DNA from: Capitulum mitella
Lineage: Eukaryota > Arthropoda > Thecostraca > Pollicipedomorpha > Pollicipedidae
Assembly: GCA_030062745.1 (NCBI GenBank)
Contig: CP099847.1
Location: 1,100,304 to 1,164,303 of the forward strand
DNA: 64,000 bases
Direction: 5' to 3'
Shown here: piece by piece, positions 16,501 through 22,500 of the stretch
Layout of the letters: the number at the start of each line of letters is the position of its first letter
Position numbering within the stretch: position 1 is the first letter of the stretch
The notes under the pieces: model-generated
The model's input: the letters and a program-made list of their open reading frames with translations, nothing else
What the model was told of the DNA's origin: nothing
The model's database searches: none
Translations under genes and position numbers: made by a program

Positions 16501-19500
16501 TCCTCGATGGTGCCCTTGCAGATGAGCCGGTACACGGTGACCTGCTTGGTCTGGCCGAGCCGGTGCGCCCGGTCCATGGCCTGCTGGTCCACGGTCGGGT
16601 TCCAGTCGCTGTCGTAGAAGATCACCTGGCGGCGCGGCACCGAGAGGACGTCATCACGTGGCGTCAGACGCGACCCCCCACCAGGAGGGGTGGCCTCGCC
16701 GACCGCTGATGAAACATGGGCTGCCCTGTGTCGGCCTTAGGCGTCTGACCACGCCCGGCAGACCAAAAATAACTACCACGGGATCGCGTGCATATGGCAG
16801 CACAGTGTCGCGACGGAACTGGATTACTTCAGCTTCTTTGTCAGCAGCCTTGTTATTATCATATAATTCGACGTAATTAGGTAATAAGTACAAAAGGCGG
16901 CACTTGGCGATGCAACTTTACACCTGAGACTATTCTTACGACAAGTTAATTCGAGAAAGCACGCAAACGTAATTCACACGAATTTAGAGTAATCTAACAC
17001 TACATAAAGCCCTTCCGTCAACATAGCCTTTCAGCACTTTTCAGGTCAACTGCGTTCCAGCGACCTCCATTTCCCGCCGCTTAAACGCGCTGGTGAAAAA
17101 GAGAGAAACAAGCGTTTCACATCCGCCCCAGACGAGGTCGCCACAACTGTTGTTCATTCGACGCGAGGTATGTGGCCACCACGAAAAAATGAAAATGAAC
17201 AATAGCTATAATATAGCAATAAGCAATAGCAAGCAGTCTCCACAAGTGAGGAAAGGAGTCAAGCACCCGGTCCACGAGGCCGAGACCGCCTTGACACACA
17301 CCCCTGACGCACGAGACCAGCGTCGGCCCGGGGTAATGACGAGTTCGGTCGGGCCGGCAGCGAGGTGAGAACGTACCGTGTCGGCGGCCGTCAGGTTAAT
17401 CCCCAGGCCGCCAGCTCGAGTGCTCAGCAGAAAGACGAAGATGTCCGACCTGGAAGACATGAAGTGGGTCGGTCAGCCGCGGCGCACACCCAGAAGTCGT
17501 CACAACTTCACGGCACGTGAGTCGCCGTCGCATGTCGCGACGTGAGCAGACACACGTCCAATCGGGGATGAACGGCAGTCATCCACGCCAGATCGTGACG
17601 TATCACACCGTCACACTCGGCGATTTTCTCACGGAAATTTACGGTCAACCGCAAGCTAAAAATAAGAGACTCTTCGAAGCCAAGGATGTGCCCTGGGTAC
17701 TGCCAATCCGCATCTTTGCCGGTTTAGAAGACAACGGGCCATCGCAGCCTCTACCTTACATGTCCAAAAACATTTACCTGGACCGACAATAATCGTTTGT
17801 GCTTGACCACAAAAAACGAAAAGGCTGATCAGTCTAACGTCAGTCTGCACCGGCAAACGTCAGCCTAGGCCAAGGCAAAGGAATATTCTACAGGCAACGG
17901 AGCGGCCCCGCGGGACGGCTTCTCGGGCGGCGGGCCGCACCTGGTCTGGAAGTCCTCCACCATGTCACGCCGCTCGTGAATCTTGGACGACCCATCCAGT
18001 CGGGTGTACTTGTGTTGTCGGTAGAACATGTACTCCTGCCGACCGATGACGGAGTCGTCAGACTACCGACGGCGGAACATCGCCACCGGCACCATCGTCA
18101 CCCACTTCAACAGCAAACGGCGGCAATGGGAAAACTGCTGCTCACTGGTCGTTAGACCAACAGAGGATGCTGAACATTTTTCTTTCTTTCAAGTACGTCA
18201 CTCCCACAACTGGGCGGTGTGCACAAATGTCATCAGACCCGTTGTGACAGCTGGCACGAAAGACACCGAAATCTTAAAGAGTAGCCTATCCTGAATTTCC
18301 CGCACATAATCTTCTTTGCTGTTAATGCCAGCGATACTGCAAATACCCGTACAAAAGCGTTCTGCTCCTTCCTATATGTCCTTCACACGCGGGCGTCAAT
18401 GTCATTTCGCGAACTGCAGTCAGTCCGACTCATATACTCCGCACATGCGAATGAACACATGACGCATTCCACACATGCACCTAAACGCAGATAACAGTAA
18501 ATTTGCACAAACTGCGGAGTGGTGACGACTCACCGGCGTTCACGCGCCACATGTCAATTCATTTTATGCGTTATCAATGATTGTATGAATAGATATGAGA
18601 CTCAGAGCTTCGCCCAAGGACCGTGTCTTCAAGTTGTCAAGTTTGTCAAGGACACCTCAAGCAGGTCGATCATGCGCGTCATCTGGGAGTAGATGAGCAC
18701 GCGGTGGCCTCCGTCCTTCAGCTTCTTCAGCAGGGAGTCCAGCACGTACAGTTTGCCGGCGTCCGTGATGAGGGTGCGCTTGTCTGGCGGCGAAGACCGG
18801 TGACGCTCATAGCGGGCCCGTCCGGCAACAGGCCGGCAAGGAGCCGCGGGCACCCCGCAGCTGGTGATGCTATTTTACCGGCACCGGCACAATTCTACGC
18901 CTTTATGTCGACGTAAAGTTTCGGTCACGCGGGAATCACTACCACATCAAAAAACGGAAAGGACGAGACAAGTCTGCTTCAGCTCTAAACCTCACGCGTC
19001 ACTCGCCATTGCTTTGTGTCGGCACCACAACACACCTGCCTCTGGATAAGCGCCGAACGACTCGGGAGAGTGACGACACTCATAATAACTGGCGCGACGC
19101 CCACTGACCGATCCGGTCGTGTCGTCTGGTGAGATGAATCTTTCGCTCTTCAGCACCACTGGTCAAACGACCCGGCCAGTGAGAGAGCTCACCTGGTATG
19201 ATGAGCTGGGACCAGCCGTGAGGGGGACACAGCTCACCTGGTATGATGAGCTGGGACCAGCCGTGAGGGGACACAGCTCACCTGGTATGATGAGCTGGGA
19301 CCAGCCGTGAGGGGACACAGCTCACCTGGTATGATGAGCTGGGACCAGCCGTGAGGGGACACAGCTCACCTGGTATGATGAGCTGGGACCAGCCGTGAGG
19401 GGACACAGCTCACCTGGTATGATGAGCTGGGACCAGCCGTGAGGGGGACACAGCTCACCTGGTATGACGAGCTGGGACCAGCCGTGAGGGGACACAGCTC

Positions 19501-22500
19501 ACCTGGTATGATGAGCTGGGACCAGCCGTGAGGGGGACACAGCTCACCTGGCATGATGAGCTGGGACCAGCCGTGAGGGGACACAGCTCACCTGGCATGA
19601 TGAGCTGGGACCAGCCGTGAGGGGACACAGCTCACCTGGTATGATGAGCTGGGACCAGCCGTGAGGGGGACACAGCTCACCTGGTATGACGAGCTGGGAC
19701 CAGCCGTGAGGGGACACAGCTCACCTGGTATGATGAGCTGGGACCAGCCGTGAGGGGAGACAGCTCACCTGGTATGATGAGCTGGGACCAGCCGTGAGGG
19801 GACACAGCTCACCTGGTATGATGAGCTGGGACCAGCCGTGAGGGGGACACAGCTCACCTGGTATGATGAGCTGGGACCAGCCGTGAGGGGGACACAGCTC
19901 ACCTGGTACGATGAGCTGGGACCAGCCGTGAGGGGACACAGCTCACCTGGTATGATGAGCTGGGACCAGCCGTGAGGGGGGACACAGCTCACCTGGTATG
20001 ATGAGCTGGGACCAGCCGTGAGGGGGACACAGCTCACCTGGTATGATGAGCTGGGACCAGCCGTGAGGGGACACAGCTCACCTGGTATGATGAGCTGGGA
20101 CCAGCCGTGAGGGGACACAGCTCACCTGGTATGATGAGCTGGGACCAGCCGTGAGGGGGACACAGCTCACCTGGTATGATGAGCTGGGACCAGCCGTGAG
20201 GGGACACAGCTCACCTGGTATGATGAGCTGGGACCAGCCGTGAGGGGGACACAGCTCACCTGGTATGATGAGCTGGGACCAGCCGTGAGGGGGACACAGC
20301 TCACCTGGTATGATGAGCTGGGACCAGCCGTGAGGGGGACACAGCTCACCTGGTATGATGAGCTGGGACCAGCCGTGAGGGGACACAGTTCACCTGGTAT
20401 GATGAGCTGGGACCAGCCGTGAGGGGACACAGCTCACCTGGTATGATGAGCTGGGACCAGCCGTGAGGGGGACACAGCTCACCTGGTATGATGAGCTGGG
20501 ACCAGCCATGAGGGGACACAGCTCACCTGGTATGATGAGCTGGGACCAGCCGTGAGGGGGACGCAGCTCACCTGGTATGATGAGCTGGGACCAGCCGTGA
20601 GGGGACGCAGCTCACCTGGTATGATGAGCTGGGACCAGCCGTGAGGGGGACGCAGCTCACCTGGTATGATGAGCTGGGACCAGCCGTGAGGGGGACGCAG
20701 CTCACCTGGTATGATGAGCTGGGACCAGCCGTGAGGGGACACAGCTCACCTGGTATGATGAGCTGGGACCAGCCGTGAGGGGGACGCAGCTCACCTGGTA
20801 TGATGAGCTGGGACCAGCCGTGAGGGGGACGCAGCTCACCTGGTATGATGAGCTGGGACCAGCCGTGAGGGGACGCAGCTCACCTGGTATGATGAGCTGG
20901 GACCAGCCGTGAGGGGGACACAGCTCACCTGGTATGATGAGCTGGGACCAGCCGTGAGGGGACACAGTTCACCTGGTATGATGAGCTGGGACCAGCCGTG
21001 AGGGGACACAGTTCACCTGGTATGATGAGCTGGGACCAGCCGTGAGGGGACACAGCTCACCTGGTATGATGAGCTGGGACCAGCCGTGAGGGGGACACAG
21101 CTCACCTGGTATGATGAGCTGGGACCAGCCGTGAGGGGGACACAGCTCACCTGGTATGATGAGCTGGGACCAGCCGTGAGGGGACACAGCTCACCTGGTA
21201 TGATGAGCTGGGACCAGCCGTGAGGGGACACAGCTCACCTGGTATGATGAGCTGGGACCAGCCGTGAGGGGACACAGCTCACCTGGTATGATGAGCTGGG
21301 ACCAGCCGTGAGGGGGACGGAGCGCGCTCACACCGCCCGACTCCGGCGCGGAGAGCCGTAGGCGCCGCTGCCGCTCCTCTTCCGCCCTCTGTTGTACCGA
21401 CAACGACACCGGCCACACATCAGAACCGACCACACCGCTGCCCGTGACAGGGCTCCGAGTAACCGGACGTTAGACTGACGGACCGAACACTGGCACTGCT
21501 CACTCTGCTGTACAGAGACCGGTCACACACTAGAAACAGACACACAGCCGACCGTACCAGGGTCCAGATTAACTGGACGCAACATTAATCAGCCAGTGAC
21601 TGACATTAACCTCTGTTACACAATGTTCAGGAACGATACCGGAAATGACAATCCCTCGTATGCAAAACCTTATGCCGGACTAACACAACACGAACTCCTC
21701 ATCGGATAGGCGCTGTTGAAGCAGTCACAATCAACAACGTCTCCATCCCGTTGTGTTAGTGCATCCTTCAACCATGACCAAACACGTAATGGCAAGATCT
21801 TCCGACGTCCAGATGATCAGAGCTAACGCATTCCAGTCTCAGTCTCGGGCGTCTCCGGTCACTGACCTCCGGCGATCCGTACAGCAGGCAGTGGTAGCCC
21901 TGTTGGGAGCCACAGCGCTGGTGGTCCGACCACCACCAGGCGGCGCTACGGTCCGAACAGTACGGCTCCACCGGACTGGCCATCGCCTGAGGGGATACAG
22001 ACGTCAAGGTCACATTCTGGACAGCACCGCTCCGCCGGACTGACCATCACCAGAGGGGATAAAGATGTCAAGGTAACAGTTAAATGGTACGAATTATATC
22101 ATTCATATAAGCGCGGAGACCCGCATCACGCCTGCAACGATCACACATCGCGCTTTGATCATCCTTGTCGAATACTTACTTCAAAAGCTTCTCAAAGCGA
22201 ACTTATCACAAGGCGGAACATTTGCAAAAATGGCTACTGCGCACGGACATCCCTCGAGGGGGGTCGATATCTTATCCCGAGGCCCCCACTATGGCAGTTT
22301 ACCGATGGGACGCAGTGAAGCCCGGAATCATGTCGGCCACTCCAGGCCAGGACGAGACCAGACGATGAGAGCTCACCTTTCGGGGAGTCTGCTGCAGGAA
22401 GGCCGGCATGTCTGTTGGCTGCAGCGGCCGCAGCTGGGCCGGCAGCGGCCGGTGGGGAAACTCCGGCAGCAGCTGCAGCTTCTGCTCCACCGTCTGCGGC

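Follow-up and report, generated by a model that had tools for sequence, protein, structure and literature searches.

The INO80 gene and its donor array

The stretch of the barnacle Capitulum mitella genome analyzed here, a window of 64,000 nucleotides (contig CP099847.1, positions 1,100,304 to 1,164,303), carries on its minus strand a partial gene for the conserved chromatin remodeler INO80, in which the end of one exon and its 5' splice site (donor) are repeated in tandem to give 48 copies. The gene model runs from 30531 to 16467 and joins 21 exons of consistent phase into a stop-free open frame of 1081 residues; both gene ends lie outside it, and the array-bearing exon, called exon 21 in a preliminary description made from the DNA letters, is e17 of this partial model. 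A translated query across the array-bearing junction matched the solved chain 9ge5_G (Chromatin-remodeling ATPase INO80), which we take to be human INO80, without gaps over query residues 8-188 (E 2.7e-91), and the upstream part of the model likewise matched solved INO80 chains, in agreement with the gene identity proposed in the preliminary description. When the first donor is joined to the acceptor before 18783, the alignment to 9ge5_G continues gapless from the peptide GWSQLIIP across the junction, where the chain reads IP-GKESLITDSGKLY. Because of this gapless homology, the true end of the exon at 21388-21283 (CCAG/GTGAGC) is placed at the first donor, as judged from sequence.

The array begins at this exon/intron border, and every unit carries a good 5' splice site. 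Tandem Repeats Finder reported a period of 44, 47.9 copies and 97% matches at 19186-21315, slightly inside the 19184..21316 span first described, and a 24-base piece of the unit, with up to 3 mismatches allowed, had 48 matches, each of them on the minus strand, compared to none in 100 shuffles of the window. As had been noticed from the letters, 48 near-identical donors follow an exon with a single acceptor and AG stands directly before GT in every one of them (CCAG/GTGAGC in 45 copies, CCAG/GTGAAC in three). The 47 donor-to-donor units fall into C4 (44 bp, 26 units), C5 (45 bp, 20 units) and C6 (46 bp, one unit), and all statements on reading frame depend on the homopolymer C4/C5 calls of the single assembly on which this description is based. 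The peptide GWSQLIIP, encoded by the exon and previously thought to be re-encoded by every unit, was found in 42 of the 47 units and missing from the other five. The sole match of two joined units in the whole 477-Mb assembly (16 contigs) was the INO80 array itself.

Near-identical 44-bp units across 2.1 kb of one assembly could also arise as an assembly artefact or as a local expansion in one haplotype. The units are of 11 distinct types, with variants distributed in patches rather than uniformly, and the same assembly contains many donor arrays of other sequence (see below), both of which argue against such an origin; we therefore give it very little weight.

Table 1. Features of the INO80 array and its surroundings (positions in the window; slash, exon/intron border)
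Feature	Position	Strand	Basis or remark
Minisatellite array, 48 copies of exon end and 5' splice site, period 44-46 bp	19186..21315	-	Tandem Repeats Finder, unit listing, 24-base match count
INO80 exon e17, 106 nt; last 37 nt identical to C-type array unit with C5	21283..21388	-	Open in 1081-residue model; homology to solved INO80; identical suffix
Donor 1 (CCAG/GTGAGCTGTG), only donor leaving INO80 open	21273..21286	-	Unit listing, gene model, homology
Region with donors 2-48, any use of which brings a stop (45 inside array, 2 in next exon)	19187..21242	-	Unit listing and gene model
Patch with all seven C-type units (units 10-12 and 14-17)	20528..20884	-	Unit listing, shuffles
Intron from donor 48 to acceptor, 409 nt; whole intron from donor 1, 2499 nt	18784..19192	-	
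Next INO80 exon e18, acceptor gccgccag/ACAAG	18656..18783	-	Gene model, homology
Hairpin of CAGCTCATC and GGTGAGCTG, 9 bp, 6-nt loop, over donor 1; letters recur in most units	21275..21298	-	
Exonic GTGAGCGCGCTC, 10 of 12 bases identical to the intron start beyond the array (GTGAGCTCTCTC)	21320..21331	-	Possible seed of first duplication

The coding part of INO80 also contains an in-frame repeat of 75 bp (25 codons; 3.1 copies, 98%) on the minus strand at 23685-23917, within the exon at 24042-23648 and in a part of INO80 that had no match in the comparison to solved INO80. Elsewhere in the window lie two more long minisatellites (31 bp x 28 at 53313-54179 and 30 bp x 22 at 7788-8455). Ten other long open frames of the window, picked by hand and not strictly the ten longest, were compared with Pfam; the one result above cut-off, DUF2934, came from a repeat-rich frame in which no stretch passed alone, and was dismissed as compositional.

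Consequences of donor choice

Donor 1 alone keeps the INO80 frame, as all 47 of the donors behind it lead to a stop. Use of donor 2 adds 44 nt and brings a TGA 54 nt into the next exon, just as the preliminary description had predicted when it argued that correct choice of the first donor matters. Exon size does not set donor 1 apart from donors 2-7, nor does donor strength set it apart from its followers: donors 2-7 would give exons of 150-372 nt, and the exons of the model range from 73 to 395 nt, and, in a score matrix built from the other 20 donors of the gene, the array donor (10.78) is the highest of all 21. Since 45 of the 48 copies share this top score, the remaining three scoring 6.31, the later copies are not weaker as donors. 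What distinguishes donor 1 is its position, being transcribed first and giving the shortest exon. Conservation of the INO80 protein suggests that donor 1 is mostly used, and stray use of a later donor would presumably be cleared as nonsense message.

Three further properties of the array were considered and set aside. The 45-bp units read on in frame as a 15-residue repeat, but the 44-bp units shift the frame, so translation is not the purpose of the array. The hairpin over donor 1 (-13.2 kcal/mol alone, -17.3 in its 40-nt window) was rejected as a special control element, as the donor-1 window is matched or exceeded in stability by 5.1% of 1,820 random 40-nt windows of the gene; it ranks second among the 21 donors of the gene, the donors of the other arrays described below range from -3.9 to -19.0, and in a gene this rich in GC such a hairpin is nothing unusual. 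A case for selection acting on the donors of the array was likewise not adopted: none of the 48 copies has lost its GT, but there were too few substitution events to judge.

The stops behind donors 2-48 raise the question of a regulatory splicing switch, in which some transcripts use a later donor, stop early and are destroyed, so that the copy number tunes INO80 output. The near equality of the donors in sequence and strength and the acceptable exon lengths from donors 2-7 both fit this idea, and the minisatellite of human IFI6 uses two downstream repeat units as donors, according to an excerpt of a published report (PMC4526556). On the other hand, we found no sign that the array is under selection, and similar arrays occur in unrelated genes, as would be expected from a mutational process rather than from control specific to INO80. 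A switch is therefore improbable in our view, although it would be compatible with an origin of the array as a tolerated minisatellite, the two not being exclusive.

The preliminary description had also pointed to the AG directly before each GT as the arrangement seen in ratchet (recursive) splicing, where an acceptor is followed by a regenerated donor and an intron is removed stepwise without a trace in the mRNA. The geometry stood up, with AG/GT in 48 of 48 copies and the next donor 44-46 nt on, and it resembles a ratchet point followed by a cryptic exon of about 50 nt as characterized in the excerpted part of PMC8605326. Moreover, in all 47 mis-spliced isoforms the excision of a GT..AG segment would give back exactly the normal message, so that ratcheting could repair messages from later donors. 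However, as an acceptor the AG at the array donor has a score of 0.83, which lies among the values of the real INO80 acceptors (-0.59 to 14.37, leave-one-out) but which 35% of the 830 AGs of the gene region (those of the array included) equal or surpass. In nearly every unit, moreover, the AG found 13 nt upstream of it scores slightly higher (1.88). In contrast to fly ratchet points, which mostly reside in long introns according to the same excerpt (PMC8605326), the 48 AG/GT in a row lie in a short intron, of which only 409 nt remain behind the last donor. With an acceptor signal that hardly stands out and no long intron, ratchet splicing is highly unlikely to be the explanation of this array.

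Donor arrays elsewhere in the genome

Triplets of the word CAGGTRAG with gaps of 12-40 bases were searched for across the whole assembly, with the reversed word as control, and gave 1,173 matches (those of the INO80 array included) compared to 110. As single words the two differ 1.5-fold (33,212 versus 22,494), leaving a 7.2-fold tandem excess of the donor word over word frequency. Long arrays are counted many times as matches, and distinct arrays were hence also counted by eye from the listings. Among the first 100 donor matches listed, all of them on contig C1 and reaching 43.7 of its 45.5 Mb, there were at least 12 distinct arrays, a single one of which (L050) supplied nearly half of the listed places, whereas 100 of the 110 control matches listed contained at least 27 distinct arrays genome-wide, one of them on C1. 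Scaled for C1 and word frequency, 4.2 arrays were expected against the at least 12 seen (P 0.001), suggesting that donor arrays outnumber the expectation about threefold and are also longer. The word CAGGTAAG by itself gave 22 matches versus nine for its control.

No comparable excess was seen in the corresponding genome-wide counts of two acceptor-like words, CCGCAGG (721 versus 857 for the control) and TTTCCAG (94 versus 43, many of the 94 belonging to one dispersed repeat family instead of tandem arrays), a comparison limited to these two of the possible acceptor words and made without single-word ratios. The excess of donor arrays is likely real, and, extrapolated from C1, the INO80 array is probably one of roughly a hundred in the genome. 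Such a genome-wide set, of which the INO80 array seems to be a member, moves attention away from the regulation of INO80 and toward the seeding of minisatellites by donors and the choice of the first donor. A literature search found no description of such a set, although most subscription papers were outside its reach.

Two observations accompanied these searches. At G000:C1:1312308-1312523, CAGGTGAG occurs five times at 52-bp spacing, beyond the searched gap range, so that donor arrays of longer period stand outside our count. Furthermore, a dispersed family, TTTCCAGTTTTTCAGACCTTTCTTTTCCAGCGCAGTCATTTTTCGTCTCATTTTCCAG, has many copies over most contigs (e.g., C2:35182304, C4:18226096, and C9:21994498) and is perhaps part of a mobile element.

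In a minisatellite-rich genome one array may simply happen to cover a donor. In the window, 35 merged arrays make up 12% of the sequence, and three of the six arrays within INO80 touch an exon border. Besides the donor array, these are a 64-bp duplication at the acceptor of the exon preceding it and, at the e12 donor, a weak repeat of 16-18 bp. When arrays of these lengths are placed at random, 2.5 such contacts result on average; when a single unit is placed instead, the average falls to 0.76 and three or more are reached in 2.8% of draws, and the local counts within INO80 are thus compatible with chance. In contrast, the tandem over-representation of the donor word across the genome, with no comparable surplus for the two acceptor words, would not be expected from chance placement, and coincidence appears unlikely to us. 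The 64-bp tandem duplication (84%, 21957-22078) covers the acceptor and the start of the exon before the array, and its upstream copy has lost its AG.

Whether other arrays also sit at exon ends was examined in a sample of 20, consisting of 13 arrays at 12 C1 loci and seven of the eight CAGGTAAG arrays. The 120 nt ending at the first donor were given a codon score, with the present INO80 gene as training set, and a cut of 0.34 was used, the lowest score among the INO80 exon ends of at least 120 nt, which stayed in the training set. This cut was reached upstream of 14 of the 20 arrays, downstream of none of 15 that could be scored, and in one of 23 flanks from 12 of the 27 control arrays, for which six frames were allowed compared to three for the donor arrays. 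Rank tests on the score gave P 2e-6 against the downstream flanks and P 3e-4 against the control flanks, and if the surplus of the donor word over its control (32% of words) is taken to mark real donors, 14 coding-looking arrays among 20 correspond to P 0.0006.

Pfam was searched with exon peptides from ten of the 13 C1 arrays, and four reached curated cut-offs: an ALMS motif at L047, an F-box at L049, a CAP-Gly domain at L054 and dynein D4 at L056. In the PDB, L056 also matched axonemal dynein heavy chain 6, and L049 matched F-box proteins. Three of the four domains extend to the donor, while the F-box of L049 stops 19 residues short of it. A motif search for the next exon beyond the array, made at three of these four loci, succeeded at L054 and L056 and not at L049. 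The CAP-Gly domain of L054 ends at profile position 46 of 65 at donor 1 and is taken up again at 47 on the far side (21 bits, by itself below the Pfam cut-off of 26.5), and dynein D4 of L056 breaks off at position 168 and resumes at 171. Because both domains resume past the array, these two arrays are placed in introns and start at exon ends, as in INO80.

In 11 of the 15 coding-looking arrays, that of INO80 among them, donor 1 is the sole donor after which the frame stays open and unshifted. Two donors, donor 1 being one, preserve the frame at each of L048, L053, and L058, and 31 of 48 keep it open at L050. The latter array (G000:C1:4790500-4800400) has 48 donors in 49 copies of a 45-bp unit behind a coding-looking exon end (...TAAIFVRQQ/GTGAGG), and its flank holds a further donor array, of 40 bp, at a later exon end, seemingly of the same gene. 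Exon peptides of L063 and L050 had no match in PDB, and those of L061, L062, and L063 had none in Pfam; a suspected resemblance of L063 to acyl-CoA ligases was accordingly not borne out by either database.

Origin and tolerance of the array

The last 37 bases of the exon equal a C-type unit with C5, and the other common C5 type shares 36 of them. Since the exon itself has C5, the frame-shifting 44-bp C4 units are probably derived. The unit proposed earlier, 33 exonic and 11-12 intronic bases with a length of 44-45 bp, holds for its period (44-46 bp), but the bases called intronic may be partly exonic in origin. All seven C-type units fall within units 10-17, a clustering equaled in none of 100,000 shuffles, and 14 pairs of neighboring units are identical compared to 9.0 expected (P 0.03). 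The clustering of variants supports growth by local copying of units.

The first duplication in INO80 may possibly have been seeded by microhomology between exonic GTGAGCGCGCTC and the intron start beyond the array, GTGAGCTCTCTC, a match with P 0.003 by mononucleotide shuffling that was noticed post hoc. As a general seed, microhomology was rejected: in a set of 15 arrays, the word lying one period upstream in the exon matched the intron start at 2.4 of 10 bases, with a background of 2.8. INO80 scores 0 in this test, its word being 49 rather than 44 bases upstream.

Taken together, the explanation we favor, with a probability of about 75%, is a minisatellite that grew from a duplicated exon end and donor and that is tolerated because the 5'-most donor wins. 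At first, the last ~37 bases of the INO80 exon would have been duplicated in tandem together with the 5' splice site, as the anatomy of the array indicates. Judging from the sequence, this duplication would be silent whenever the 5'-most donor is taken, because the copy lying furthest upstream still marks where the exon truly ends; the array could then enlarge inside the intron by local unit copying, later copies being removed with the intron and the message left unchanged. The spliceosome would have to commit to the first donor, as the intact frames of INO80 and of most of the siblings examined suggest. In an array of acceptors the wrong copy would come first, which would be harmful under a first-come choice, and such a choice may therefore explain both the tolerance of donor arrays and the lack of acceptor arrays.

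Several points weigh against this explanation. In reporters, use is often spread over equal donors placed in a row. The 0.34 cut was chosen with the yardstick already in view, and at the 95th percentile of INO80 introns 18 of 20 upstream, one of 15 downstream and 15 of 23 control flanks pass, so that the control separates from the donor arrays only at the stricter cut, at which six of the 20 donor arrays are without a coding-looking upstream flank. In addition, the control word was matched for composition and not for genic location, and minisatellites commoner in genes could explain part of the excess. Finally, tolerance alone does not explain why donor arrays exceed the background, for which a mutational preference or a benefit (e.g., more U1 binding) would be needed.

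The nearest precedent is the minisatellite of human IFI6 (6-16, G1P3). Its unit is reportedly about 12 nt long and in frame, so that added units change few residues. IFI6 and INO80 have in common a minisatellite that lies at an exon end and provides several splice donors; the INO80 unit differs in its length of 44-46 nt with 33-37 exonic bases, in that all 47 alternatives are nonsense, in its location in a conserved remodeler, and in the many such arrays that the barnacle genome appears to have. The IFI6 minisatellite is credited to Turri et al. 1995 (PMC2572611, PMC4526556), and three mRNA species are described as arising from the use of two of its downstream units (PMC4526556). Tandem duplication of a segment with AGGT, as is present in the INO80 array, is also a described route to new introns, with ATP2A1, 24-nt repeats of fission yeast and potato RdRp given as cases in the excerpted parts of PMC4974935 and PMC3629103. 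There, tandem copies of a segment with AG/GT (AGGC in fission yeast) are spliced from copy to copy and the peptide remains unchanged (Rogers), whereas the INO80 array has 48 copies and a pre-existing donor, and lengthened an existing intron instead of creating one. Intronic minisatellites are mentioned for an earthworm metallothionein, with no link to donors in the excerpted part of that report (PMC12783039).

More tentatively, and with somewhat less than even odds, we propose that 5' splice sites, and not acceptors, are preferred birthplaces of minisatellites in this genome, and that the arrays persist through commitment to the 5'-most of dozens of identical donors in identical local surroundings. 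The tandem excess of the donor word, unmatched by the two acceptor words, points to such a link between splice donors and minisatellite birth. If this is true, the asymmetry between donors and acceptors would be the trace left in the genome by a first-come, first-served choice of splice sites, at its most extreme in INO80 and L050. Reporters used to study the choice among equal 5' splice sites usually carry two or three of them, and INO80 offers a natural experiment with 48 near-identical donors, near-identical flanks and a conserved gene in which only the first is right. Together with the arrays of other sequence in other genes, against which RNA data could be read, it would allow the effect of position alone to be measured.

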